DNA of 64,000 bases. It comes from Pipra filicauda (lineage: Eukaryota > Chordata > Aves > Passeriformes > Pipridae). A program made the position numbers and the translations under genes. Of the stretch, positions 7,371-59,967 are shown one piece after another. The number at the start of each line of letters is the position of its first letter. The stretch's first letter is position 1. The notes under the pieces are model-generated. The model worked only from the letters and a program-made list of their open reading frames with translations. It did not search any database and had not been told where the DNA came from. The DNA lies in contig NW_024104311.1 of NCBI RefSeq assembly GCF_003945595.2, forward strand, positions 186,001-250,000, read 5' to 3'.

Positions 7371-7379
7371 TACTTTATT

Positions 7380-7386
7380 AGGGAGG
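7380..7386 (-). terminator. AATAAA hexamer at the end of exon F
   Basis: Minus-strand CCTAATAAAG overlaps the exon F stop region. A GT/T-rich stretch (TGGGTGATTTTCTCTCCCATTGTTTG) follows within 50 nt, as expected of a cleavage/polyadenylation element. The overlap with the stop leaves almost no 3' UTR before the signal. Confidence 0.4.
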
Positions 7387-7387
7387 A

Positions 7388-7535
7388 TAAAAAGCGCTGC
7401 TCAGACAGTCCGAATAGGCATGGCCTCCTGCGCCGCCAGGCTCCTCAGGCTCAAAGTCTTCAGGGTCTGGGGGCAACTGGTCGGTATCTTCATCAGAAGT
7501 GGAAGGGCGCGTGAGGATTATCCGAGGTATCTTCA
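7388..7535 (-). CDS. Possible terminal coding exon F with stop and overlapping polyA signal
   Basis: Open from the acceptor (TTTCACATTTTGCTGAAG) in phase 0. Begins IPRIILTRPSTSDEDTD, continues with an acidic Pro-rich segment (LPPDPEDFEPEEP), and ends AYSDCLSSAFYPP and TAA. The stop overlaps TAATAAAG, so AATAAA lies directly at the end of the frame. CpG content is high for the region. The frame stays open about 60 nt upstream of the acceptor. I do not recognise the protein; the composition suggests a disordered acidic tail. It is the last plausible coding block before MLIP and could end the PDZ-bearing transcript. A CR1 copy starts only about 130 bp upstream. Confidence 0.5.
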
Positions 7536-20953: not shown

Positions 20954-21049
20954 TGTTATGATGTGATTTACTGTTGGGAAGTGGCTGCCCTTGGGTGAAG
21001 CTTCAGTAGGACCAGCATCAAGGACAGCAGGTTCTGAAATGAAGGTAGC
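20954..21049 (-). CDS. Exon-like block E, unknown
   Basis: Thirty-two open codons, phase 0-0. Encodes ATFISEPAVLDAGPTEASPK and GSHFPTVNHIIT. The acceptor is a run of T ending in AAAG, and the donor is a perfect ACA|GTAAGT. Both other frames contain stops. It follows the PDZ exons by 1.7 kb but does not look like the missing PDZ second half: there is no H-x-x-AV helix. It could be linker or a chance exon. Confidence 0.45.
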
Positions 21050-22772: not shown

Positions 22773-22850
22773 CTCAGCCACTCTGTCTCCTGCTTGTACT
22801 CCAGCCAAGTCTGATGGGCTGTCTTTCGGCAGCCGTGCAATCAAGATCCC
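22773..22850 (-). CDS. PDZ domain exon, middle part
   Basis: Twenty-six codons, phase 0-0. Encodes GILIARLPKDSPSDLAGVQA then GDRVAE. This continues the preceding exon as PDZ strands beta-C and beta-D: G-[IV]-[FL]-[IV]-x-[RK]-[VL], then SP(A/S)...AGVxxGD+[VI]. The acceptor is GTCTTACCAG. The most likely donor is GAG|GTAGAT, where LAP-type PDZ domains continue with V/I-N-G. Read-through beyond the donor (VDVFFVNAECILLLL) does not resemble PDZ sequence. The alpha-B helix and last strand must come from another exon, which I could not find. Confidence 0.78.
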
Positions 22851-23527
22851 CTGGTAAGACAAAAGACAGGTTTTAGACCTGACAGAATTTCTTCTATTGT
22901 TCTTAGATGTAAAAAGCAAATGGGAAGTAATTAATTTTCAAGACTTGTTGTTCTGTTGCCCCCTATAAAATTAAAACCTAAATGCCTTAGCACATTAGCA
23001 AGGCCAAAAAAAAAAGTCTCCATGGCTGACACATACAATAATGAACAAAAGTCAGTAATTGTTTACACTGTGCCATGGGGGACAGATTGGGAAACAAAGA
23101 TTTATTTAAATGATAATTCAGTGAGAAGTTGTGAGAAATACTTCTCTCAAGTCTAGTTAGTTCCTGGGAATTAGCAAATGGGAGGGAGAGCATGTGGATT
23201 GCCAAGGGAGTGACCTCAAATTGAAGCAGAAAATGGAAATTAGACAACAGTGTTTCAGCCATCAGGTTGCCTCTGGAAAATCATTGGTTTACCTTGGGTT
23301 TTCTCTCCAAAATCATCCCTCCAGAAGCTTCCCCATCAAAAGCTAGTGTCAGCTCCTACTTTAGGAAATAAGTTACGCATGTTTACCCTTGCTAGCTTTA
23401 TCACAAAGACAATAATGTTACATGAAGGACAACCTCAGAAAGAAAACAACAAAACACAATAGCTCAAAGAACTACTCATCGGTCTATTTCTAATGATCAG
23501 TAGATAAATTTTGAATAAGAAATGCAC

Positions 23528-23617
23528 CTCATCACTGTCTTTACACGAGGGTGAGCCCTTTCCACCAGCAATGCTAATACCAAGGCTCCCCATTTGGCTG
23601 CACACAGTAATGGTTAC
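23528..23617 (-). CDS. PDZ domain exon, N-terminal part (Scribble PDZ1-like)
   Basis: Thirty codons, phase 0-0. Encodes VTITVCSQMGSLGISIAGGK followed by GSPSCKDSDE. The carboxylate-binding loop is SLGI in place of the classical GLGF, followed by the beta-B strand ISIAGGKGS. This is nearly identical to the first PDZ domain of Scribble (GGLGISIAGGKGS). The acceptor is TTCTTTACAG and the donor GAG|GTGCAT. The exon ends at the DE|GI junction, where the next exon resumes the PDZ fold without a break. Nothing in mammalian LRRC1 or MLIP, as I know them, corresponds to it. Confidence 0.8.
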
Positions 23618-24870: not shown

Positions 24871-25107
24871 CTTCAGTGGGGTCTGTGGCACATCCATCAC
24901 CCTCAATTCCTCTGGGATCCGGCTGCTCTCACTGGGGAAGCTGCCTGCTGAGGAGACAGCTGGCTGCACCTTAGTGTTAGTCCCTGGAGGATTCTTCCCT
25001 TTCATTGCCAACTTGTGCTTTTCTTGAAGAGTTGTTCTGGTATTTCTTTGATCTCTCATGCCACCATTGCTATCAAAAAGACTGCCGGAAAACTTGGAAA
25101 TAGGTTC
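24871..25107 (-). CDS. Exon-like block B, Ser/Pro-rich linker leading into PDZ
   Basis: Seventy-nine open codons, phase 0-0. Begins EPISKFSGSLFDSNGG, passes through a basic stretch (EKHKLAMKGKN) and ends SSRIPEELRVMDVPQTPLK. The acceptor is TTTAACCCCCAG and the donor AAG|GTATTG. The composition suggests a disordered linker. Its last residues sit where Scribble has the segment just before the first PDZ beta strand (a RIEEEEL-type motif, from memory), and RIPEEL is a weak match. No stop occurs across the block. Confidence 0.62.
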
Positions 25108-27291: not shown

Positions 27292-27495
27292 ATCATCAGG
27301 ATCCTCGAGTTCCTCTGCTTCTTGCTCAGGACTGCTCCTTCCTTCCCTCCATTTTCCATTAGCAGAGCTGAATTTGTACAGGTTACCACCATGAAAACTT
27401 TCCTTTCCTTTCAATGAGGCCCAGCGAGAGCCCTGAGAGCTCCAGTTATGGCCACTGTACAGTTTAGGAGACTTGGGAAGCCACTTAATAGAGTC
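27292..27495 (-). CDS. Exon-like block A, acidic linker upstream of PDZ exons
   Basis: Sixty-eight open codons, phase 0-0. Begins DSIKWLPKSPKLYSGHN, has a Ser/Gly/Trp-rich middle (SSQGSRWASLKG) and ends in an acidic run (SPEQEAEELEDPDD). The acceptor follows a long pyrimidine tract ending CCCCTCAG, and the donor is GAT|GTAGGT. I do not recognise a domain. An acidic, low-complexity linker between LRR and PDZ1 is also present in Scribble, so its position fits, but I see no firm alignment. It would be the first block downstream of LRRC1 in this unit. Confidence 0.6.
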
Positions 27496-37489: not shown

Positions 37490-37648
<159 letters not shown>

Positions 37649-39380: not shown

Positions 39381-39740
<360 letters not shown>

Positions 39741-40925
39741 TCACTCATTCAAGATTTACAAGTGGTTATTTCTACTTTTTTTGGCAGAAAAAAGAACTTG
39801 CATTTATTTTCTGTTATTGAGGACACACACTAAATAGTTTATGCATAAATGAGATATTTCTATACTTGGACTGTTTCAGATTTTAGAGTGTTGATTATAT
39901 AATTTAATATATGTGGCTTTTCTTCTGGATCATGGCTGCCACCTGACATTAGCCAGTTCACTAAATGGATTTCCTAACACAGGATCATTGCTTTTACTGA
40001 CTTCATCCTTTTAATACTATCAAGCATACACATCCAACAATCCTAATTCCAAGCCTTCTCTGCTTGAAGCTATGAAATTCACCTGGAGAGGCGGAAATCT
40101 AATTTCTAGTAGTGTGGTCCTTAGAGAAAGTCAGTCTACCTCAGTTCCTCTTCTTGAAGTAGCTTAATTTTCTCTAAATCTAAACAGGTTGATTCATTTA
40201 CTTATTTTAATTCTTCATGGAATTTGTATTCTTAAAATCCAGAAGCTGAGATAAAACAAATACTTCTACACTCCTGCTGCTTCAATGGTTTCTATTTGCT
40301 CCAGCCACACAGGACTGAAACACTGGAATTAAGCCTGGGTACCTACAATACAGATATCTACAGCTGAACTTTTCTCCTCAGGCCCCTTTTGGACTCAATG
40401 GAGAAGAATCTACATGATTTTCTTTTAAAGTCCATTCTTGCATGGGATAAATTACTTTCCAGTGATTACACCAGAAGTTTAAATATTAGCTCAGACGAAT
40501 CCCCTCCAATGTTCACACACAGCTTTAAAACTTGAGGACAAAAAGCATTCAAAAGTTACTGGAGCAGCAACCCAGCCAACAGTGAAAAAGAGTTTATGGT
40601 TCCACCTGACCCAGAGGCAAGTTTCAACACAAAAGGTAAACGCAGCTTATAATGCAATTCTACACTTGTTAATTAATATAATAAAGTTATTGTACAGCAT
40701 ATTTGCTTGAAAGAAAATTAGCTTGCTAAAAAGTAAAATGTCTACTGCTTACTACTCGCTATGCAATTCATTTTTCTGGTTAAAAAAAAGCAGAAAGGCA
40801 CTAATTTTCACAACATATATATGTATTTAAGATGTATAATCAATGTGCACAAATATGGACACCACTACATGGCCCACTGGCAAGCCTCAGAATAATGATC
40901 TAAGTCTTTTTCTTTCAGATCTGTA

Positions 40926-40960
40926 TTTTATTTATTGTATGTATTGTATTTATTGTTGTC
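40926..40960 (+). repeat. TTTATTGTA tandem-like tract
   Basis: TTTATTTATTGTATGTATTG continues with TATTTATTG. Imperfect tandem of TTTATTG/GTATTG in an LRRC1 intron. Confidence 0.6.
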
Positions 40961-41144
40961 ACTGTATTTTCAGTAACACTTACTGCCAAGTTTTCAAGTC
41001 TTCTGAAGACTGATTACAGAAAAAAAAAAAGTTTAATAGTGAAAATTCAACCAGAACTTTGGTACTCTGCTCATTAGAGCTTATGAATCGTTTACAAACC
41101 TTTATGGAACAGACAACAAAGTAAACAAAGAAGTAATATTTCTA

Positions 41145-41354
<210 letters not shown>

Positions 41355-42211
41355 TTAAAAAAAAAAAGTAAAAAAGTCAGGGCAATCTCTAGGAGACTTA
41401 GTAGAGACTCATGAAGTTGACTTAAGTATATATCATTGAGTTAGAATAAATAGGATTGAAATTATTGCCTCTAATAAAAGGCATTGCAGTAGTCATCAAT
41501 TCCAACTATTCCGTTCTTTAGAAAAAAAATAAATCTGCAGCTTAACTTTATACCATAATCCTCTGTAGCTGTGAGTAACAGGTAAAACTATGCTGAGCTT
41601 TCTCTACTGCAGTAAAATGCCCTGGAAGGCAGACGGCTGCCTCTGCTCAGGAACGTTACACATAAACAACTGTCAGACCAGTAACATGTAAGTGCCTCTG
41701 AGACAATTACTTTGCATAGAAGAAATAACATTTGCTTTTCCTCCTTTTTTTGTTTTTTCATTTAACTCCCTACTAAGCAACTAAACTAATTTGTTGGTTT
41801 ATGCTTTAATCCACTCATTTTTGCATGTTGATGTCTGAAGCACACTAAGACTGATGAGAAGCTACAAGGTCAAACTGGCTTTCCTTGATACCTTCACTGT
41901 ATTGCAAAGATAAGACACTCGATATTAGTGTTACTCAGTGTTATGGCTGGTAGTTTCAGCTGAAGCTCTAGCAGTTGCCTAGATTCTCAGTTTCAACTCC
42001 GAAATATACAAATCCAGACGGTTTTTTTTAAAATCCTATCTCTTCCTCAGAGTCAAAGTAATCAAAAAAATCACACTCATGAAAACACACAATTTATGCT
42101 ACTTTTGGCCAAGGGGAAAGACTACTTTCAGAATTTCAACCATAACACTAACATAAATGTCATAACTGGTTTTTATTACTTCATTCTTAGAGGTAGTATC
42201 TTTTGCTATCA

Positions 42212-42379
<168 letters not shown>

Positions 42380-44176
42380 CTATATCAGAGAAGAGGGGGG
42401 GGGAAAAGTCTGGTTTTGTTGCCATACGACAGTATAACAAAGGCATGCAGTACTGGTCACAGAGTATGCCACAGCACATTCAAGCTACAATGCCTGCCAG
42501 ACACTTCACCCAGAGGTACAGACTGCAAACAAGTGTTAGTTTAAAAGAAGTCTGACCTGAAGCAAGTCTGTTGGAGCCATGTCTTGAACATCTGTATCTC
42601 TGTATCTTTACAAATAGGTTGCATTCTACCTACCTTTCAGAGCCTTCTACACAAGGAAAAAACCAGTAATCACACACAGGCTACTCTGTAGACAACACTC
42701 ACAAAACCCCCTACCCTTAACTTTTTCTAGCTCTGCATTTTACATATTAATTCATTCTTTCCTCTCAGTAACTTAGGTACAAACAATGGGGCTTTTGGCA
42801 AAGCAAAATGCTAAACACACCAACCAACTCCCAACATTTATTGAGGCCACAAAGAGTAATGAAGAGTTCACAAGAAGCAGAAGACTGAGTAAAATCTTTG
42901 ATGCCCTGAGTCGTTAAAAGTATCTCATTTCAAGATGATTCCCATATGAATTGGTCTTCTTTAATCTATTGTAATCTAATATCCTCTGTCTCTACCCATT
43001 TATCCAAATGTAAGCATTTGCATTCTTAAGCTAGTTTTCTGGGTGCAAAAGATAGTAAGTTTTCCGTTTTACCCTTAAAATACCTATATTTTCCACCAGA
43101 AGTAGATGTCTTCAGAAAAATAAACATTCTATATTTGATTTTAAAAAACCATATTCCAGTTTTATGTTCCAGAAGGAGCTACTCCTATAAACATCAAGAT
43201 TATTAGCTGTAGTAACTCAAAAGCTGCTTCAAGTAACTCTTTGTTCCTATTCACAAAGAAAACCTACCTTTGTTTGCTTATCATACGGAGTTTTCAAAAA
43301 GCACTGCTGTTTGTTTGCGTGTTCCAAAACCCACCATAAGAAGAGGAAAAAAAGACGTTTCTTTTCTTACTCCAAGTATTAGAGGCAAAATATCCCAATG
43401 CCTTTGGAACCTTTCAAGTAAAGTGGACTTGGAATCTAGCTATAGACACCAAACGTAGTGGAAGAGCTTAGTTCAAAAACTGGAGGACTTCTATAGTCAC
43501 ACACATCTAAGAAGGGTTTCCTCTCAAAATATAGCCAGCATGTTGCTACACTGTGCTCAGGAGTCCCCAAATCTGAGCCGAAATTATTCATGCGTTCTTG
43601 TTAACTGTCAGTTGTGTTTTTGCAAAATCCACAATTCAGTCCAAATCCAAGTTTGAGATTACAAACAACTACCATGAAAGATTTTTAATTGGTGAAGTAA
43701 AAATAATGTTGATTTAACCTACACTATTTACAAGGAAAAAGCCATTTTTAAAAGGATGCAACTCCGACTACAAAATAAAACAAATACACCATTCACCTTC
43801 CTTTGTATCATAAATGCTTTTTAATGGAAGAAAGCAGCAATCAGCTGCTCAAGGCTTCTGATTCACAAGCTATTTACAGCAAAAAGTTACAATGCAACAT
43901 TCTCTTGACAAAAAAAAATCTGTGATGTTTCCCCTAAATCACTGCACTCTTAAAGAATGCAGCTATTTCACAAGATTACCAGCTTTCCTGGTCCTGTGTG
44001 TACAACAGAAGCATCAACCTTGTTAGCCATTTTAGCTTGTGAATCAAAGCCCTTAGAAACCAGTGCTCAAATCGTGAGCAAACTTTCTTAATGCAAGAAT
44101 TCTGCTACTCATATTAAAGCGTGTATAGATTCTTAAATAATGTGCCTTCACATATTCACAGAATACAGTGCCATTT

Positions 44177-44198
44177 AAAAAAAAATATATATACACAC
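44177..44198 (+). repeat. Short A/TA/CA microsatellite
   Basis: AAAAAAAAATATATATACAC, a compound simple repeat within the largest visible LRRC1 intron. Confidence 0.75.
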
Positions 44199-47100
44199 TA
44201 AGTGTCTAATTGGTGTTTCTAACACGAGGAGCTGTGAAAAGCAAGAAATACAATTAGTGAATGTTGATGAGCTGGTAAGTGATGCCCTAAGTGTACACAA
44301 GGTGTTAGATTTTCATGAATGAAGTTTGCGTTATTCAGTCTTGGAGCATGGAGATCCAAACAGTTTAGCCAAACAAACAAGGGAAAGCCATGCAGCCCTG
44401 ATGAGACCAAAACTTCTATACTTCTGACAATGGAAAAATGCAGCAGTGGAATCGGACGGCCCGAGTCATCATGCATTTAAAGCAGTTTAATGAAAGGTAA
44501 CAGTAGAGCCGTGGACTGAATAATACTTACAGGGTTATCAATTTACCTGACCCATAATTTTCCAAGCGGCTAACAATTAAGAAAATACAAAAGATGTTCA
44601 ATTTATTTTTCTTTATCCATACTGGATACATGGACAAGAGCATGCCAACAAATGGGAGACAGAACACACATTTTTTTACTGCCAAAAAGAGGGTTACAAC
44701 TCCTAAATTATTTTAACTTCTGTTAATTTAACTTTGCACTATCACTCAACAGGCAGTTGTTCAAAGGTTTTGTTTCATTCAGAGGTAGTGAATTTTCCTA
44801 GGGTAGTGGGGTAGACAAAAAAAGAGACACTGAATTTTTTTTAAGTAACTGTTTTAGAAAATGAAGACAGCATCTAACGAGCAGTATCAGGTGAGATATC
44901 ACAGAAAAAAAAGACAAGCTGACAGTTCAAAATAAACTAAAATCTTTGTCATTTCAAACAAAGATGGCACCCATCCAGCAGTACAGAAAGATGTCAGGTC
45001 CAACGTTTGAAAACCTGAACATGAAGTCGTACCACTGAGGCAAAGTGCACACACTGCATGGCATGCTGAAAGGAAAACACTGCTGTGACCACCGTGAAGT
45101 AATACGGTATCAGAACGTCGCTGGTTTGGCTGAGAGTCATTAACTGGGGAGGAGCCATGCTTTCCAAGGGTCTGATCACATGCTTACAACAAACTTTGCC
45201 AAACCACAGCATATGCACCAAGTACACAGTTGAGGCCACAAGCCCATGTAACACTTAAGCACACAATTCATTTCAAGCACAGACTTCAATTAATGGGGAC
45301 AAGCATGTGCTTAGTTCTAGGCACATGAGTAACTGTTCCAAGGACTGGAGGCTTAAAGAAGTCCTCACATTCTTCTGCAGTGAGCAAGACATCAGGAAAA
45401 GATCTCAAACGAGTTGTGCATGTCTAAGTCATACTCCTGAGATTTAGTTCATTTTAGCAACTTTAATTTAAGGGTTATTCCCTTGTCACATCACACCAAG
45501 TCCAACAGTAAGCCTAGATAAAAACCAAAACCAAAACCCACACATCAGTCAGGTAGAAAATGGTCATTACTACAAAGTGCTAATTTCAAGATCACTGATA
45601 CTATGAAGTCAGAATAAAACTGCATATTTGCAATTCAGATGGACTTGCTTGAGAGGATGAGCATCACTAGGACCCCTCTGGGTTCCACACAAAACTATAC
45701 CTATGGAGGACCTTTCTGATCTTTCCTTCTATCTCAGTCTGAGGCTCATCTTTCTAACAGCTTCCTTGTTCTGGAGAAGCAGTAAGGTTTGGACGTACAT
45801 AGGCAGTATGTCATCTTGGCTACTAAAGCTCCCCACTATGTTCTGATCATGGGAAGCATTCAGCACTTCAGCCCCCTGCTTTTTTGACATTCATATACCT
45901 GCTACTAGTCCATCTTAGACAGTCCTCTAGAACTGCAAGTCTTAACACATCACTTCTCTGCTTTTGTTTCTGTTGACTCTTAAGTATATACCAGCAGTTG
46001 TTAACTACTCAAAAGCTATGAATCAATTATCCTGTCCTTTACCAGTTAGCATCTTTCACACAGGTATAAGCAATGAAAAAAATTACGATATTATGACAAA
46101 TACTATAATCATTATTCTTCAGCATGTGACTAGTTAAAGTCCAATGACACATCTCTTTTATTCAACTCTCAAAACAGCTGTCAGCGTCAAGAACTCTCAC
46201 AAGGTTTATACAAGCCTGATAAACATATTGGCAATTTAAACACAGTTCCTCTTGTGTTATAAAACCTTTTCCAGAGTGTCACATCCAAAATTTTGTTTGG
46301 TTTCAAAGTAAACAAGGTCAGAATTTTCCTTGGCTCTACATAAAGTATACTACTTCTTTAACTGCAAGCATAGAATACATTTAGAGGTGGAAGAAACCGG
46401 CCAATTCACTATTATTAACTATTATTCAGTTATTAATAACTTTAAATTGGCTAGGAAAATCTTCAGCAAACTCATTTCAACACCCCCTGCACCACTGGTG
46501 AATAGTAGAGGAGGAGGAGCATAGCAAGGGAGCTGCTCCGCCCTCTGTCTCAAGACAAGTTTTCCTGCATTTTTCCTCAGTGCCTTTTTTCCCTCTGAGA
46601 TGCACAAACACATACTTTTACACAAATGAGGGAAGGGACAGGACATCTGAAGTTAAAACCAGAAACAACAAAGCAGTCCCACTTATTTGAAAAACAAAAT
46701 TAAAAGACGGTTACTGCCAAAAATACCTGCAGTTTTACCTACTGGAATAATAATTCTCACAATATACCTCAGAGCCAGGAAGGACACGTTACAAGATCTC
46801 TGCAGGTTGTAAAGACTCATTAACAAAAGCTGGAAAACATTCCAAGGAGGTTATTTATGCAAGTGCCAAAATCAACACACCAGTTTCACCAGCGCTCCTG
46901 TGCCAGGGTGAGATTTCAATGCCTGAGAGTCACCAAGCAGGTCTTTCAAGTTTAAGGGGAAAAACATTTCTAACTATGAACAGGTTTAGACATTCTCAGT
47001 TCTTGCTGAAGTTTGTTTCACCACTTGGTTCAGTAAGAGAGGGATCAAGCTACAAGATGAGATAATGAAAATGAAATCTGTCAGTGACTCAAGTCTTGGT

Positions 47101-48959
47101 CATGCATTCAGCTGTTCCACATTTTACCTTTATTGGCACACAATACAGAAGAACCTCTGAACCAGGAAACTTTGAAGGTGTATTTGCATAAAAACTCCTC
47201 AATAATCCCAAGTCAGAAATCTTACACCAAAAGATAGAGAATGGTTTTACAAACGTGCCTTGAAACAATCTGGCAATGTAATGGTTTAACAGATTTAACC
47301 AAAAGCCAATTCCCTTAAACTGCTAACAAAACAAAATCAAACCAACATTCCCCCCGACACCCTTCCCCCAAAACTACAAAAAAAAACCCTACACTGCCTC
47401 AGAAAAGCTAGAACTCAGAGATTATCTCACCAGGACACATTAGAGCAGGCACATACTTTCTGCCATCCTATGTATAAAAGTTCTCTTTGCTACAGGAATA
47501 ATTCTGAATGAAAGGAGAGATACCAGCAAGCAGATACTGTATTGGTTACATGTGCTCTTCTCCCATTTTTTCCAATTTTTTTTTTTACATGCATGTTACC
47601 AGACTCCGTGTCTTTGTCCCTCTCCAACAGAAACCAGTAATAGCCTGTCATACACCCATTACTTATAAGGATGAAGACCACAAATGCACAGTGTTCTAGC
47701 ACTCTGTAAGGCAGGGGAAGAATGAAAGAGGTAAGGAAAACAGCTAAAGGAAAAGAGGGGAAGATAAATTAACAAAAATATCTGTGGTGCACACTCTACT
47801 TCTGCATCTGGCTCTGCTTCTGTGAAGGGGGAACCAGTGTACAAGTACTAACACTGACTGACGTGCAAAAGTCCAAGACCTCAGTCTTCACCATACTGTC
47901 TCAGGAGACATCTTAAGCAACACACAGCAGGCATGGGTATTGAAAATGACTACTGTCAGAAGCTTGTGCCTGGCTTTAAGTATTAATTAGTTGGTTTAGG
48001 ATGAAAATAAATGGAAAATATAGTATGATTCTCTCACTGTCAAGCAGAGCCTTCCAACAGACAGAAAAAGGGTGACGCATTTTTCAGTTTTCTTTAAGTG
48101 TTCTACCAATGCATTTTCTATTACTTTTTTTTCCAAGTCAGTAATGATGAGAAGGAAAATGGAAATCGAACACTTCACCCAAGACACCAAATTGTTCCTC
48201 CCTGCCATCCAAAGGGAAACTGAGAATTGGGATCTCTGCCATTATCAGCACACCTGAAGCTGCTCCTGTGGATGCTTTGCGTAACAACAAACAGTACTTG
48301 TTATACCTGTGCACTCAGTTTACACAGAACATTTTTCTTTTAGAGCTATGAAACATATCTCTTCACTGAATTCCTCTGAATTTTAACCAGAAAAATTACA
48401 TTACAGAAATGTTCATGTTTAGTTTAAAGCACAATGCTATTGGTTAAGAAGAACACTATACAAAGAAAATGCAGTTCCGGGAACAGACGAAAACATGAGC
48501 AGAGAGCAGTAGATTCCTCTGTTTTTGAAACTAGCATTTCAGCATTGTTAGAAGGCAATCTAAAGAGGGAAAAGCATTTTACTGCACAGCCTAAGCTCAA
48601 GGAATTCAAACTGAAACTTGAAAAACTGAAAAGCCTCGTTAGCTAGACGGCAGGTTCTGCAATACATGCACATTAACAGTATTTTTGAGACAACCTATTG
48701 CATCGGTGGTTTATGCTTTCTATTTGTCACATTACCAGCTTGGAATTCCAATGCACTGATCTAGAGGGTGGACATGACCCTCCAGTTAGAGAAGGACTGA
48801 CTTCCTTTAAAAATAAACAATTAAAAATTAAAAATCCACAGAGCAAAATATAAAATCTTACATTACATTAATTTCAGTATTTGCTCTAATGAATCAGACA
48901 TATTGGTGTGGGCACCTTTAAAGGAAAAATAAAAATTCTATTTCAAAGAAGTGGATAGG

Positions 48960-49490
48960 GAGTCAAGGAACTCTGCTTCCTCTGTTTCTCTGCCAAGCTC
49001 CCTGGGAACCACCCTCTCCCATTTTAATTTCCTGGACTCCATCAACTCCCCAGCTCACCTCATTCCAGATACTACCTTCCATTTCCTCATTATCCGCCTT
49101 CTCCAAACACAGGCTCATTCCTGACTTCCTCCCACTGCTGTTCAGTTGTCCCCCTCTGTCCCTCTCATGTGCACTAATGTCCTCTTCACACACTCTCATT
49201 CTTCACCCTTGGATATCCCCAACTCCTTCACCAACTGAGCAACATTTTCCACCTCTGAAACTCATTGCTGGTTCCATGTCTCCAGTATCTCGCTCAGCAT
49301 TAATCCCTTTATTGTTCTGCACTGAGCTCTCAGCTCCATTATTCCCTGTAGACCTGTTCCATATTCATCCTGCTTTACCTGCTTCTGAAATCAAGCCTTC
49401 TCCTTTCATCTGCTCCTGTCCCTGCTCCGTCCAAGCCACACTGCTTGCCCTCATGCACTGTCTCCAATATCATGTACTTCACTAAGAAAA
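48960..49490 (+). other. Pyrimidine-rich block in LRRC1 intron
   Basis: About 500 bp of strongly C/T-biased plus strand (CTCCCTGGGAACCACCCTCT, TTCACCCTTGGATATCCCCA, CTGCTCCTGTCCCTGCTCCG). Open frames on both strands (49,177-49,485 plus, 48,963-49,199 minus) follow from low stop-codon density. No domain is seen. It may be an old unrecognised repeat. Confidence 0.5.
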
Positions 49491-50924
49491 GTGCTTATAC
49501 ATTACATAAGCTATTAATGGATAATCTGGAAATAAAGTCTACCAGTAAAATCTACATGCTATAACGAACTCAGGGCAATTCTGCTTAAAGGTAGAGTAGA
49601 CATAAAATTGTACAAATCTCAAGTTCAGATATTTTAGGACACCTGTGTAATGTATTAACTTAAAGTTCTTTGTACAGACATGGAAAGTTTTCTGCTGAAT
49701 GAGCATAAGATCAAAATTGTCATCACATACCAACCCAGAAACACAGTTTTCCCAGGGTCTTGCCTCTTGCCAGCATTCATGGAACCTGTCTGGGTACACC
49801 CTCTGCAGTTTTCTGTTCAGAACCAGCGGCACCTCTGCAGAGAAGACACTGTCCTGCTAGAGAAACTGCAGTACTCACATCTTCTCTTCCCTCCCCATTA
49901 GGTGACTGGCCTGTGGCAGCTCAAACCCAGGACACTGGAATTGTTACTGCCAGTGCCACAGCAGCATCCTCTGTCCCTGCTTGACCCCCCTCTCCCATCT
50001 GCGAGTTGCCTGCCACTTTGTTTCCTTCTCATACCACCTCCTTGAGCTGTCCAAGCTCCATAAGGAAGAGAGCCAGAGCTGATACTCCTCTCAATTTCTG
50101 TCCATTGGCTGCCACCTGAGTACACATCCCTCCTGCTCTTGAAGTAACTGAAAGTGGTGAAGAAAAGCTTCAAACTCAGAGCTATATGTTATAGATAGAT
50201 AAGAAAATTAAGAGGGAGAATTACTTGGACAAAGATTACGGAGAAACAGTAGTGCAAACCGAACCAACTCACAGCCCCATGCTCCAATCACAGGATGCTG
50301 CTTTCCCTGACCTCTTTCCACAATTTACAACTGAATTAAACTTCTAAGGCTTTCGTTACACTTAGTTTCACAACAGAAACTCTAGCCTAATTTCATTCCA
50401 CCCACTGTTACAATACACAAGAAGTCCCAGTGATCATAGCTGTAAGATTTGAGGTATATTGGTCACATCAGGTCCTCACAGTTAAGGGCAAAAGCGGTCC
50501 AGAGATCTTCAATAAGACTGTCAAGACAGTCTCTGAGTCACTTTTCAGAATATGAAACTTTCCCTTTGCTATTGCTCCCTAGAGTGAGGTGAGGAAGAGG
50601 CTGACAGTACTTTTATACTACATGCACAAGAGGCATATTGGTGTTTAAATGCATTTCACCTACCAGAAGTCCAAGTGTTCAAATAGTGCTGGACCTGACA
50701 CCCACACTGGGAATTGCCAGTTACAAGCTAATTAGATCCAAGCCTTCCTGTTCAACTGCAAAGACATTTTGCACTTCCAAGCCACCAAATCACCAGAGCT
50801 GCTGTTCGGATCTAATGGACAAGTTCCTGGTTATGATCAGTTTGGAAAGAATCCCCAGTGCACCAAAGCTGCCTGCTACTTCTTGTAGGTATTTGAAACC
50901 AAGAGTCTTCTGCTTGTACTATCA

Positions 50925-51077
<153 letters not shown>

Positions 51078-51971
51078 TCAGAACAAAACTTCTCTCACTT
51101 TAAAAATTAAGTAATATTCTGATCCACTTTCAAAATTGAAGTGTCTTAGTCCTCATTTACTGCCAGACCTTCCAAAGAAGATCTAAAGGTTTATATTGCA
51201 GAACAAATATCTAGGAATGTCAGTTTCTAATACAAATTCACTCATGAAATATCTCTGCACTAAGACAATAGTCACACAAGAGCTGTGTACAGAATGTACG
51301 TATGCAGAATGCCCATATCATCGAACTTCAGGTTTTCCAAATTAATGGAGAAGCAATCTCCTAACTTAGGTGCTATGAACTGACTTATGGAGAAGCATCT
51401 TTCCATCAGACTTATGACCCTAACTCAATCATACCAACTGAACTTAAATGCTCAAACCTAGATCTTTATAGAGACATCTACTCTCCAAGTGTCAGTGTCA
51501 TGTGAAGACAGTTCCAAAATAATGGAAGGAAACACCTAACAGAAGGAATTCTTATTTATTTTAACTGACCACATATCGTATTTAATATCTGGCTGGAGTA
51601 CAGCAGCAGAGCAAGGAGCAATACAACAGAAGCTCTGCAGCGCTCGGGGCTCCTATTCAGTTCCAGCAAGTCTGATCCAGATAATGCACAGGAAAAATTG
51701 GCAATAACACAATACAGCACAAACCCCCCATTAAAAACACAACAAAGTAAGTGATACCTGCACTCCACATGCTCCAATTCCCTTACTGGTCATGAAAGAT
51801 TCAAGAATGAATATGTAATTGCTGAAGCATTTGAAGGGCATATTGTTACTACACACAACTTGATCTCCAGCATTCATTGAACAGGTAAGAAATAAGATGC
51901 ATTTAAAGAAAACTTGCTAGTTAGCAGGAGCAAGGGTGAGTAATCTAATGAGCTAAGTGATTCAGCACCTA

Positions 51972-52172
<201 letters not shown>

Positions 52173-52869
52173 TTAGTATCCTCCAGTACCTGCTTTAATT
52201 ACATAAAATTTTACTGCTGCAAAACTTCTAGAAATCCTCTAAAACAATGAATTTTTTCAGGTAAAAAAAAAGAACTCAAGCACTGCTTCACTTGGTGCTT
52301 GCACTATATTAGGAAGTTTTAACATCACTGAGTTCATATTCAATATAAATATTCATATCCAACATTTAAGCCTAAGAAAATTGCAATAAATTTGCAATCT
52401 GAACATATTCCAGGTAAATATCAAGGATGTGTCTACCCAAAGGCCTATAAACACGTGAAAATTATCAGGTTTTTCCGCCATTATACAACATCTATTAATA
52501 AAAAAGTGTGCAGAAGATCACCTACACCTAACTCAGCTACAGTGAGAATGGCTTGCAGTGAAGTGACAGCCCAAACCCAAACTGGATTAAGGTCTCCTTG
52601 TCCTCATATAGAACCCAGTTAGTCAGACATGAAACCCAATTTTATTCTTTAGACTAGAAATCAAACTTCTTTGAACGTGGTCTTCCCATGAAGAACAAAA
52701 TACCATTTCAGCACAGAAAGCTCACCTTGTTCTTCTTTGCAACAGAATGGGGAGAGCCCAAGACAGAGAATTCAGGAGATATCACTAGCTGCTGACACCT
52801 CCCTGCCATCCCTACATAGTCCAAAACAGCTGTAATAGGCTGGCATATCAAATTCACTGCTGATGCTAA

Positions 52870-53620
52870 ATCGTGAAGAGACATCTGATATGCAGAAAGA
52901 TAAAAACCTAAAGAGAAACTCAAGGTTTAGCACAGAGAAGTGCAGAGCTCTGCAACCAGGCAGAATAAACCTGTGCACCAGCACCGCCTGGGAAATGAGG
53001 GCTGTACAAGAGTTCTACTGGAAGGGACCTGGAGACTATCGAGGGCACCAGGCTGAACATAACTAGCAGTGAGCTCTCACCAGAAATAAACACTAGCTGG
53101 ACTACATTAGGAGAATTAAAGTCAGCAGATCAATAGAAGTTGCTATATCCCATCTACCTGCAAATAGTGAAACCACACCTGTAAAATCATTCTCAGATTC
53201 ACGTCATGTCCTGGCTTTCCCGTGTTCAAATGATGAGGGTCCAGTAGAAAGCTATCAAGATGGCCAGGGCACATGTGAGCTGAGGCTGAGGGAGCTGGCT
53301 TTGTTGACTCCCACCAAGAGGCAGCCGAGGAGATATCTAGGAACTACATATCCCGTAGCTACTTGAAGGGCAGTTACAGAGATGACAGAGGAAAACTCCT
53401 CCCTGTAGTGGCAGGTAAGACAGCAATGGCTGTAAATTGAAGCATGGAAGATCCCAGCTGGACATCAGAAGCAGCTTCCTCAATAGGAGGTGATGCCCGG
53501 GGTGCTGGAGCCAGCTCCATTAGGGCTTTAGAGGTTTGGTGAGACATGGCATGACCCACTGGTGCTGACGAGAGCCCTGCTTCAAGGGCTCTACAGATCC
53601 ACCAATCCAACCACCAATTC
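52870..53620 (+). mobile_element. Old CR1 LINE fragment, plus strand
   Basis: Diverged but recognisable: TTTAGCACAGAGAAGTGCAG, CACCAGGCTGAACATAACTA, GTCCAGTAGAAAGC..CAAGATGGCCAG, CTGAGGCTGAGGGAGCTGGC, CAGCTGGACATCAGAAGCAG. These occur in the order of CR1 ORF2 3' sequence, with many substitutions and small gaps. Boundaries are approximate. It lies in the LRRC1 intron between 52,142 and 54,715. Confidence 0.75.
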
Positions 53621-54638
53621 AGTGATCAGCTGAGCAACTCCCAGGAGCTTTCACATTAGACCAGCAAGGTTCACTTCTGCCAACAAGCTCTATCTAGCAG
53701 ACTTCATGGGCTGTTACATTTAAGAAGGTACAGCTCCATTTCTGATGTACAACAACTGTGCTGGCCAGCTCAGGTCATCACAGCGGGCTGCTATAACTCT
53801 CTATCAAACACACATTAGCCAGCTGTAGGACCCACACGACTCACCCCACCTCCCCAAGCTGAACTTCTAGAGAAACATTTCTTTTCTCATATAGCATACA
53901 GGGGAAGGGGGAAGGTCTGTCCATTCTTTTCCACATGTTAGATGTAGTTAAACCACATTCACAAGTCCTCTTTATCCTACAGCTTTATTTTGAAAGAAAA
54001 AAAAAGTCTTCTCAAGAAAGTACACTCGTACACTCTTGTAATGTGACACTTTCCAGAAAAACAGCTCATGAGCAGCAGAGAAAAAATGCTTCACTGACTA
54101 CTTGTGACAACTACTGCATGGGTAAAAACATGTACCTTAAAAAAGGCACTGGTAGTGCTTCAGAAAATATTCTTCAGTTACTGAACCTATTTCTAAGGGG
54201 TCAGACACAGAAAGATTGTAGTTTGAATATTCAAGGGCAAGGAGTAATGGGCTGAAGTGCAACCAGTCATCCACTGGGTTCAGTATAGGATTAATCACAT
54301 TGTCCAACTGGAGAGAAATACACATCCCCCATTAAAAATTCTGTATTTCTATGGTGATACTGTCAGTCAGTCTTATCAAGTGACCCACAGCACATTACAA
54401 GTTAAAATTCTACAGTGTTAAAGGAGTTTATGATGGTGACATGGATACAGTGGAAACCAAAAGGACATATTAATTTTTATTTTGGTTGGTAGGAATCAAG
54501 TGAAGACTGAAAGAGGATTATGAGGTAGTCATGTAGAGAATAAAAATGCAAAGTTAATAGAATTATGCATTTCATACTAAGTAAAAGGAAAAAAAAACAA
54601 ACCTGAGACAAGCTCATCTTTTGCACAAAAAGACTTCA

Positions 54639-54881
<243 letters not shown>

Positions 54882-56274
54882 TTAAGTCATGCTCAAACAC
54901 GTAAGAAAGCAATTTGAAAAATGTACCATTGCAATGAAATTCCACAAAGTAAAACAATTATCTGTATGACCTCTAAATTGGCCGTTCTCTACATGACCTC
55001 TACATGCAGAAAAAAAAAGTAAATAATTACACTTTACATATGCTAAACCAACCAAGTGATTTAGTCACAGTTTCTTATTCTAGCTATTAAGACTGCCTTC
55101 AGTAGTCAGACAAGGGATGCTGAGCTCACTGAGGCAAACAGCAGCCAAACCTGGAGTTTTCCCTCAAGTAGACTGCACAGTTGTTTTTTCAGAAAGGCGG
55201 ATTATCAACCTGCACATAATTAAATCTACCCCTCCCAATTAACCCTAGGCAAATTAGGATTAGTCTCTCCTGGCTGCTACAGCAACGTGCCATGACATCT
55301 AGGGATTTCATATCTTCACATCTCCCAACTACAACAAATGTAGAAACAGGAATTAGGAGTGTTGCTCTAGCAAGCATATTTGAACTGCCAAGTTATGCTG
55401 CCATCATCTGCAATTATTATTGACTACTTAAGGTTTTTACAATGGTAATCCAACAATTAGACAGAGAAATGCCTTTGTCCCTACTAGCTATCAGAGCACC
55501 CTCCCATTTCCCATGTACACAGACACCTCTATACATGCTTGAGAATAGTTCTTACTTTAGTCATTCACCTTTCAGAGAAGAGAACAGCTGGGGCAGAACT
55601 GCCCTTTACTTTTACATATATGAAATTTTCATACAGTGACAGCCATGATCCTAACTCACAGGATCAGTTCCTTTACTTTTGAAACATCTGCCTCTCAAGA
55701 GGATCTTTCATTAAACACATACACATACCCTTTATCCTACAAGTTCATCTTTTGGCCATTAGACAAAATACACAATAACGGCCAGTTTCAATAAAAACAG
55801 CATCTAAAGTCAAACTTGACCTTTTATAAATGATTATTTCTACTTAAAAAATTATTAGGCCAAGCCAACAAAAACAAAGTCAACTAAGCCCACTAAACTG
55901 TAACTGATTTCCCAGGTACACAGTTGACAATTTGATCAATATATGAAATAACAGCAAACTGCAGGAGGAACTGAAGAAAAATCAGGTTTTGACATGTCTG
56001 TAAAGGAAAAAAGGGAAAAGGACCCATCCCCCATGTTATCAACAGTTCTTAAAAAAAGGAAATTTGGAGTGCTGTAAGCTTTAAATGCTAAGGCCCTCAT
56101 CCTGTGAGTGATATCAGATAGGGGATTTGCCTGAATAAATCAAAATTTCTATTTACAGCAACAGTTCTGTTACTTCTCCCTAACACTGTGCTTCAGTGGA
56201 TGAAGATGACTGCAAAAAGCAAGGAATCATACTCAGAACTATTAAAACTGCAATTTAGATAGATAAACAGGTGA

Positions 56275-56345
56275 GGGTTAGCTCAGATGGCTAGTGGCTC
56301 CCTCATCATTGGGCAAGAACTGTAAACGGTGGGTGTGTCATCCTA
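56275..56345 (+). repeat. tRNA-like SINE relic
   Basis: GGTTAGCTCAGATGGCTAGTGGCTC contains a perfect Pol III A box (TAGCTCAGATGG, 56,279-56,290), as in tRNA-Ile and tRNA-derived SINEs. The expected B box is too degraded to call (GGTGGGTGTGTCATCC). It does not fold as a functional tRNA by eye, so I call it a decayed tRNA-derived SINE or tRNA pseudogene. Confidence 0.4.
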
Positions 56346-56533
56346 AAAATTTAACAGTGCAGCTATTAGGAAACAATTCCTTTGACAAAATGCTTAAAAG
56401 AAAATTTCTGACAATATATAGTATCATGGCCAATCCCTTATTAATTTATTAAGAGAAGACCCTTACACACCCAAAGCCAAACCCAGGCAAAGTGAACTGA
56501 GAAATCTATTCCATTTTAAAGCACTTCCCTTTA

Positions 56534-56674
<141 letters not shown>

Positions 56675-57429
56675 CTACAACATAAAACATCATAAAGTTA
56701 AGTAGCATAGCAGCTTTAAGTAAAAAACAAATGGCCACCTTGCAATTACAATATAAGTAAACCAATTCTTATGCAAGCACTAGTTAGAGGTACCTTGATT
56801 AAATGCAGCAAGGGTGACTGTAAGCTTTTGGGACATACAAGTTAATTGCTATAGCTTAACAAATTACCATTCTTTACCTGGCATTAACTAACAAATTGCA
56901 TGCACACTCTTGATCAACTGCAAATCCAGCATTTAATTGAGTCAGACTTCATGGGATATGAAAGATATCTTTTTGGTAGATCAATCTGCGACAATGTAGG
57001 ACCCTGCAAACCTCAACAGTTTGCCTCAGCCCTTTTACAAAGATTCCTACTCTCACCCTGAAAATAAGTGAGCTTTCATCTGTGCTCAGCTCATCCAGCT
57101 CCTGACAGAAGCCCATGTATTCATTGTAACTGCAAGCGCAGACAAGAGTTTGTGCCCTTCCACTCCTTTTTACTTCCATAAGAAAAACTGTGCAGTGATC
57201 TCATTTTCTAGAGATCACCAGCAGTTTTTTGAGTAAAGTGATATTGTACTGAACAAGACTAAGCAGATACAGGAATCACCAGCTCACTGCCAGAATTCAT
57301 CTGTGCATACAAAAAGACTCTCCCTCCACACATTTTTCTTTCTTCAATTTTGGACATCATATAACCTATTTAATCTAAATGATGCATAAAACAAGACCAA
57401 TGTGCACTTTCAGTGGCATGTTCTCTTAC

Positions 57430-57493
57430 CAAGTGATAAAGTTCATTGTTTCCTAAATCAAGTTCTTCTAGTCGCTGCAGCTGGGCAAGTGAT
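57430..57493 (-). CDS. LRRC1: LRRC1 coding exon, residues about 168-189
   Basis: Encodes SLAQLQRLEELDLGNNELYHL after completing a GA-A Glu codon from the previous exon. This is a canonical LRR with the LDLGNNEL signature. The acceptor is TCTCACAG and the donor GTAAGA. It is 64 nt long and ends in phase 0. Confidence 0.93.
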
Positions 57494-59072
57494 CTGTGAG
57501 ATAAGTCAAAGCAAAACCACATTAGACTAAACCAACAGAAACCCTATGTATTTGAATGAGCTCATTTTACTGAAACTTGAATTTCAAATTACAGTGTACT
57601 GAAGGCAGACAGCTATTTTACCAGGCATAGACTATTTGCAGTAATACCTTACTGAAAAAATAATTTGGTTTGTCAGTCTAACTGTATTTCTTTGAAACTT
57701 AAAACTTAGAACAGGCAATCAGATCATTTTTTTTTTTTTTATTTTAACCGTAAGTCCCTTGGGGTGGAAAATGCCACATAGTCTAGTACAGTTAGTTAGA
57801 TTTATTTTTAGGGGAAATTTACAGTTATACAACTGGACAAAAATTCCCCATAGTGTAACTATGTGACTCAAGACTCAATAAATCCATTATTTATCTTCTC
57901 AGCATGATCCATCCTTTTCTGAAGTATTTCAGGTTGGATTCAAGACTGTAAACAGAGGGAAGCCCAAAAGGATGTAAAAGAAGTTCTCTGAACATAAAGA
58001 GACACAGAGAGCCACCCTTCTCCTTCAAAAAACAGTCTGTTGCTTACCTTCCCCAAAGTCACAGTAGCATGAAAGCCAGCAAGACTTCTCAACTATGTTA
58101 CTTGCAGTCAGAAATTTCCAGGAGCAATAAAACTGTCAATATTCGCGATAGTTTCATTCTGACACTGCATGACAAAACTTAGCTAGCGATTCCTATCTTC
58201 TGATCACGGACATTTAAAGTGCCTTGTGGCTCACAGCTATAAACAGCCACAGCCAAGGCAGTGGGTAGACTGACAGGAAAAAAGGAACCCAAAGCAACTA
58301 GGGATGAGATTCTGATTAAAATAGGTTAAATCTTTTACAGTATCTATTAGATTATCTAAACAAGCAAAATAGGAGTCACCAAAGCTCCTGCAAGAAGCAG
58401 CCAGTCAGTGAAGGAAGGAAGCTCCTTCATTAGAGAAAGAAAAGGCTTCTTCTAGGCAGACAAAAAGGATTCCCAAAATATAAGATACAAAATTAATCTT
58501 AAAAAAGACCACAAAGTCCTCTGCCACAGATAACACAGAGACACCTATATAACTTTTTTCCCCAAAAATCACAGTAGGTGGAGTCAGACTTCAGACATCA
58601 GTAGGCCTAGTTTGCTACTGAGGCTTTAGAAGCCTCCAGGTTTTAGAAGCTTTTGGTTACTCAGCCCCAAACGCAAACACTTATTTAAAAGGTCTAGAGT
58701 GGAAATCTCCAAGATCTTGTTACCCTACTTTCGCGGTTATGAAATTTCAGCATGAGAACAACCCAAACCACCACTCCCACTGCAGACACGCTTGTTCAAT
58801 GAGTGCAAGAAGTGTTTGGTGCTGCTGCGTTCTATACTGAATATTTTTTATAGAGCAAAGCCAATCCACACAAACTGCAAGCTCCAGTAAATAATCAAGT
58901 ACAACTAGGAATAATGGATGCAACTAGATGTGGCTAAAAGAAGGTTGTATCTCATACATGTCGTCAATTGGCACTGAATATTTTTCTAGCTGTCATTCAG
59001 TTTCACATGTTAGCAGATTTTAAGAATAAGAACATTTTGTTAATATAATCAAACACACAAAATGTCACTTAC

Positions 59073-59129
59073 TCAGGTAAATACGTCAGCAAGTTTTCTC
59101 TCAGTTCCAGTGAAGCCAGGTTATAAAGA
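59073..59129 (-). CDS. LRRC1: LRRC1 coding exon, residues about 150-168 (first in window)
   Basis: Encodes LYNLASLELRENLLTYLP, an LRR unit. The acceptor is a T-rich tract ending in TTTTTAG at 59,131-59,130, and the donor is GTAAGT. The first base completes a codon begun in the previous exon, probably Asn, and the exon ends after two bases of a codon. Length 57 nt. The exon before it is more than 4.8 kb upstream, outside the window. Confidence 0.93.
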
Positions 59130-59967
59130 CTAAAAAAAACAAACAAACACATTTTAATACAATCTTACTTTTCAGAAGTGTGTGTTTACACAGTTTAAAA
59201 CAAAATTGCTGTAAAGTGGTTTTTTGTTGTTTTAGTTCAACCAGTCCCTGATGGGAAAGGCAGAATACAAAGACTAAGTTCTTGCATGTTTCTCTGTGAT
59301 AGGCAATAGATTAAAGCTAGAAAGTAAACAGACAAAACACAAATTTCCATTTGTTAAGAGGTCTGTAGCTGCAATTTACTGAACAGAGCATACTCATTTG
59401 AATTGCATTCACTTACTTGCTTTCAGAATCTGTCACGGGCTACCAAAGTTACAGAGCACCAGGTAAACCCATCACTGTTCTAATGACGCCTGCTCATTAC
59501 TGTGAGTGACATTATGCTTCTAAGCGGCTCACTTACTCCATATCCCGGGCTTTTACTAACATCACCATAGCAACATTCAGATTTCTCAGGGGTTTATTTA
59601 TGACTAAATGGAACACAAGGAGTCAGACATTATCCCAACACTATAATCTGCTCTAATCCTCCACCATCACAGGGAAAAACAAAAATCAGATATGGTGATT
59701 GCAAATAAGGAGTTTTCTGCAACAGAATATGTTCCATCCCAGTGTGCACAGAAGGGGGACAGTGGTTAGGTCTTAAATAAAATCTAGTTTAGAAACAAGA
59801 ATTCCACTAATTTTGAAACACATTAAGTCTAAATGTGTACACCTTAGGAAAAAAAAGAAGCCCTTACATTTACACCATAAAAATTTAATTTTTTTTCATC
59901 TCACACAGTACCAACATACTGAACTACAGGATCATTAGTTAGCCCCAGTAAAAAATCAGCTCAGTAA

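Follow-up and report, generated by a model that had tools for sequence, protein, structure and literature searches.

LRRC1, MLIP and Scribble as closest described systems

In the part of the source available, mammalian LRRC1 is described as having no PDZ domain, and LANO as the sole LAP protein said to lack one (PMC12731447). MLIP (muscular LMNA-interacting protein) is presented, in the accessible parts of two further papers, as a muscle-enriched protein of unique sequence found only in amniotes (PMC7998221, PMC11240681). Here we analysed 64,000 nucleotides of Pipra filicauda contig NW_024104311.1 (positions 186,001 to 250,000, forward strand; hereafter the window), in which LRRC1 is encoded on the minus strand from residue ~149 through its usual end, followed on that strand by two exons coding for part of a PDZ domain. 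These exons, C and D below, are very probably coding exons of a long LRRC1 form. They would be the remnant of the PDZ1-type domain that belonged to a Scribble (SCRIB) paralogue, an ancestral gene ordered as leucine-rich repeats (LRR), linker, PDZ and MLIP. We also consider it likely that LRRC1 represents the N-terminal and MLIP the C-terminal half of one such paralogue, with the PDZ exons as the surviving hinge, and that sharks and some birds make joined products.

The order of LRR, PDZ1-type domain and C-terminal segment in SCRIB equals the LRRC1-PDZ-MLIP order; SCRIB has four PDZ domains, whereas the proposed LRRC1/MLIP paralogue has one, and only half of it in sauropsids. In mammals its product would be split over two genes, and MLIP is the next gene after LRRC1 in birds and mammals. 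Short LRRC1 shares the gene and the LRR part with the long form, which differs in having a six-exon tail (A-F) with part of a PDZ domain, not the short form's TTSV end.

Exon structure of the long LRRC1 form

The LRRC1 exons in the window code for LAP-type leucine-rich repeats, with a per-exon identity of 77-88% to human LRRC1 (tblastn, human query sequence). The tail exons are phase 0 at both ends, with AG/GT borders, no internal stop and the frame kept throughout:

39505..59131, minus strand: several LRR exons of LRRC1 (tblastn with human LRRC1; residues ~149-470; last donor after 39504)
37490..37648, minus strand: LRRC1 'ATPHP' exon; the short form reads through to the stop at 37490; internal donor after 37529 (LDSNKNE/gtcaat)
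27292..27495, minus strand: tail exon A (DSIKWLPKSPKLYSG...EDPDD), 204 nt, phase 0-0
24871..25107, minus strand: tail exon B (EPISKFSGSLFD...PQTPLK), 237 nt, phase 0-0
23528..23617, minus strand: tail exon C (SQMGSLGISIAGGKGS), 90 nt; PDZ beta-A to beta-B including the carboxylate-binding loop
22773..22850, minus strand: tail exon D (GILIARL...GDRVAE), 78 nt; PDZ beta-C, alpha-A, beta-D
20954..21049, minus strand: tail exon E (ATFISEPAVLD...TVNHIIT), 96 nt; branch point to F or MLIP in other species' models
7378..7530, minus strand: tail exon F, terminal coding (IPRIILTRPSTSDED...YSDCLSSAFYPP, then stop); tblastn 78% to crane P0006

A sequence-only reading had placed C and D as two consecutive minus-strand phase-0 exons about 14 kb downstream of the LRRC1 stop on the same strand, and this was borne out (AG acceptors, GT donors; stop at 37490, 13.9 kb away). 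The junctions that it proposed (39504 to 27495, 24871 to 23617, 23528 to 22850) fit the way peptides are joined in models P0001 and P0013. Exon E, the terminal exon F and a second route through the 37648 exon had escaped it. Two routes lead into the tail: the 37648 exon is skipped from 39504, or its internal donor after 37529 is used, as in the long-form models of owl (P0074, KNE/DSIKW) and sharks (P0047 and P0062, KNE/DSLK). Further downstream, E is joined to F in P0006 and to MLIP in P0046. The splice pattern alone proves nothing, since 36 kb contain 121 candidates of this kind (open, phase 0, 60-300 nt long, preceded by a pyrimidine-rich AG acceptor and followed by a GT donor); as we read the locus, the case for C and D is carried by homology and by database gene models, and the tail is already inside the automatic, predicted LRRC1 models of birds, turtles and lizards.

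Short LRRC1 ends in TTSV, which looks like a PDZ ligand and is encoded 3' of the long-form donor (KNE/gtcaat), for which reason LANO's PDZ ligand may derive from retained intron sequence. At the other end of the tail, the exon F stop TAA overlaps AATAAA (TAATAAA, window 7374-7380, minus strand; AATAAA from 7379), leaving little 3' untranslated region before a possible poly(A) site.

A half PDZ domain in sauropsids and a complete one in shark and ray-finned fish models

The assignment of C and D to beta-A to beta-D of a PDZ domain closest to SCRIB PDZ1, proposed from the letters alone, was confirmed by search. The joined peptide (56 aa) had human SCRIB PDZ1 as its top match (phmmer against PDB, E 4.9e-13) and scored 25.5 bits against Pfam PDZ (cut-off 23.2). 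The motif G.[LI]G.S[IV].GG occurs a single time in the six-frame translation of the window, and a PDZ-domain tree placed the LRRC1 PDZ beside SCRIB PDZ1 and PDZ2.

The domain is incomplete in Pipra filicauda, where the match covers Pfam PDZ positions 8-50 of 81, and no alpha-B remnant was found 3' of the exon D donor. We rejected the idea that exon D is shortened by a cryptic donor within a longer exon: the read-through peptide was no nearer alpha-B than shuffled sequences, 742-2478 of 5000 shuffles reaching its score (4 references; window and hoatzin peptides together). Because alpha-B is missing, a canonical peptide groove is not expected from the predicted half domain. AlphaFold2 models of the half-PDZ protein P0006 (crane) and, as a control, of P0056 (skate), whose PDZ is complete, had a mean pLDDT (predicted local distance difference test) of 48 and 45, and neither was usable.

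All comparison proteins in this work are predicted models. A protein search with the joined bird exons, for which only proteins of ~307-978 aa were eligible, gave 61 matches: LRRC1 with the tail in birds, turtles and lizards; stand-alone tail proteins; shark LRRC1 with a whole PDZ (P0047, P0050); and tail joined to MLIP. A profile search (best 120 of 195 matches listed) added 85 proteins, mostly from ray-finned fishes and with a whole PDZ and exon F. When these 146 proteins (61 + 85) were sorted by printed name, the alpha-B/beta-F segment was present in 89 of 89 shark and ray-finned fish proteins and in 0 of 57 from sauropsids; by printed name, no mammal or amphibian was among the 61 matches or the best 120 of 195, within these length limits. 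Moreover, a PDZ with alpha-B is found in the shark and ray-finned fish LRRC1 models P0047, P0050, P0062, P0069, P0184 and P0233, of which Labeo P0233 and Albula P0184 are LRR + PDZ proteins of ray-fins and sawshark P0062 covers Pfam PDZ positions 5-80 of 81.

As far as these predicted proteins indicate, birds keep half a PDZ and the tail itself goes back to sharks; it is not peculiar to one bird, as the sequence-only reading had supposed. The longer LRR-PDZ form that it also proposed holds in that bird, turtle and lizard models splice the tail on, and fails in that the PDZ is not whole. The Lepidochelys tail model P0036 carries a reverse transcriptase domain (PF00078), probably a model error.

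MLIP and the C-terminus of Scribble

When a profile was built from 15 MLIP C-termini free of LRR and PDZ, 76 of 106 SCRIB proteins reached E <= 0.01 with it (best value 3.1e-10, for 100,000 sequences), as against 0 of 212 shuffled or reversed proteins; the common segment, GRET[KR][YF]A...T[RK]PGVI[RQ]P...NPF, lies behind the PDZ domains in SCRIB. The reverse profile, from 40 SCRIB C-termini, matched 14 of 17 MLIP proteins at E <= 2e-5, with no match among 141 other proteins or 187 decoys. Furthermore, hhalign of MLIP against SCRIB gave 96.8% and E 2e-10 (single comparison). The Pfam MLIP model (PF15274) listed no match for the two SCRIB proteins tried, P0117 and P0150. Judging from these profiles, MLIP is homologous to the SCRIB C-terminus.

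With shark LRRC1-PDZ fused to shark MLIP as the query, most of the best 120 of 1048 matches were SCRIB. Among these 120, LRR, PDZ and MLIP occur together in two predicted models: sawshark P0062 (1879 aa; LRR 2e-27, PDZ 8e-17, MLIP 4.6e-43) and owl P0074 (1034 aa; LRR, a sub-threshold half PDZ, MLIP 1.6e-153). Among the matches listed, four further elasmobranch and four further bird models have MLIP attached to PDZ or linker exons, and there are MLIP models from several sharks and rays. In Mustelus, the LRRC1 and mlip models list contigs of equal size, and likewise in Chiloscyllium, which suggests one chromosome; the Chiloscyllium MLIP model P0068 bears the name 'mucin-5AC'. MLIP is probably not the unrelated neighbour that it had first been taken for: shark, ray and bird models join the tail exons to it. 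On the best reading of these sequences it would be older than amniotes and SCRIB-like, contrary to the amniote-only distribution and unique sequence given in the available parts of the two papers (PMC7998221, PMC11240681).

The same joins allow another explanation, namely that the exons have a promoter of their own and chiefly form the 5' part of MLIP, or of a separate PDZ-tail gene, and that they are joined to LRRC1 by occasional read-through. Bird MLIP models do start in or before the tail exons (P0030, P0032, P0046, P0048), there are stand-alone models of 300-380 aa (P0004-P0006, P0008, P0010), and P0006 has a first exon whose counterpart in the window is 27788-27645. This stretch, upstream of exon A on the minus strand, shares 85% identity with the N-terminus of that crane protein and is a possible alternative first exon; in Pipra filicauda, however, it begins with I and has no Met. 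Against a role as MLIP 5' exons stand the LRR-tail models in birds, turtles, crocodile, lizards, sharks, Albula and Labeo and the phase-0 junctions of the whole tail with LRRC1, and exon F closes the protein before MLIP. We regard this explanation as improbable.

Conservation of the tail across sauropsids

The window was compared with 20 hand-chosen species, 16 of them sauropsid. Exon A is 88-97% identical in 8 birds and 74-85% in turtles, crocodile and lizards (lizards alone 74-75%). Exon C reaches 80-93% in 12 of the 16 sauropsid models, being absent from those of Corvus, Pitangus, Crocodylus and Podarcis, and 83% to lizards in the three of four lizard models that contain it. Exon F, missing from the Motacilla, Pitangus and Chrysemys models, is 72-90% identical where present (lizards 72-80%). 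Exon D ranges over 46-100% in 15 of the 16 models (absent from Crocodylus), falling to 46-69% in lizards, and exons B and E vary more. Since conservation reaches lizards, these values argue for partial constraint on the tail, with A, C and F conserved and D loosened in lizards; the constraint or recent use read from the absence of stops would thus hold for part of the tail. Among the species compared, Pitangus P0007 is the nearest for B, D and E (94-100%), and Corvus and Athene are the nearest for the LRR part (98.1%).

A decaying relic, that is, leftover exons rarely spliced and rescued by gene predictors through homology, would account for the incomplete PDZ in 57 of 57 sauropsid matches, for the state of exon D in lizards and for the several models that skip C or D. 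The lizard identities of A, C and F would hardly be kept without constraint, however, and the frame is open in every exon, so that we find a relic very hard to credit. Scarcely conceivable is an unrelated PDZ gene inserted beside LRRC1, for which the lack of a PDZ domain in mammalian LRRC1, as given in the available part of the source (PMC12731447), is the sole point in favour, and which is largely refuted by shark and fish proteins in which the same exons follow the LRR part (P0047, P0050, P0069, P0184, P0233), the PDZ itself being SCRIB-like.

Proposed origin and its implications

Several observations weigh against a common Scribble origin of LRRC1, the half PDZ and MLIP. Part of the tail may be drifting, because exon D decays in lizards and many models lack C or D. 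Support for an LRRC1-PDZ clade is weak (64/76; 59% of bootstraps). The MLIP-SCRIB match spans just ~60 residues; 30 of the 106 SCRIB proteins were unmatched by the MLIP profile at E <= 0.01, and the SCRIB profile missed P0032 and P0055 and reached only E 0.1 with P0072, these three lacking one or both halves of the shared segment. The comparison proteins are predictions throughout; P0062 and P0074, for which UniRef is the only source, could be neighbouring genes that were merged. The MLIP coding exons lie outside the 64-kb window, in which neither an MLIP coding exon nor PF15274 was detected by tblastn with human MLIP and models of bird MLIP as queries.

Under the Scribble origin that we favour, one ancestral paralogue would have coded for LRR, linker, PDZ and an MLIP-like C-terminus, and would have split, its 5' half becoming LRRC1 and its 3' half, with a separate start, MLIP. 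The LRRC1 half would end early, in the sequence 3' of the internal donor that supplies the TTSV end, and mammals would have lost the middle part of the ancestral gene. In birds, the gene models suggest that 3' splicing of LRRC1 picks either the short TTSV form, which would bind PDZ proteins, or the long A-F form. The long form, having no TTSV, would not bind MAGUK PDZ domains through it, and its half PDZ, without alpha-B and beta-F, would not bind peptides canonically, for which reason the selected function probably lies in linear motifs of exons A, C and F.

If this is true, the muscle lamin-binding MLIP would be a piece of a cell-polarity scaffold and not an amniote invention; a Scribble origin would place it in a family, push its date back and point to partners that can be tested. 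LANO might be without a PDZ, as the available part of its description has it (PMC12731447), because the short form stops upstream of the PDZ exons. Sauropsids would then be a natural experiment on a half-lost, partly conserved PDZ domain. Among the literature matches listed (titles and abstract starts, with subscription papers sparse), there was no link between MLIP and Scribble and no PDZ for LRRC1. The LAP phylogeny of Santoni (2002) may bear on the LRRC1/MLIP-Scribble question.

Other features of the window

Six large open reading frames on both strands and one over exon A had no Pfam match at E <= 0.1, and the tRNA and Rfam scans of the window found nothing. At ~15405-15240 on the minus strand, the sequence resembles a bird CR1 long interspersed nuclear element and is a putative fragment of one.
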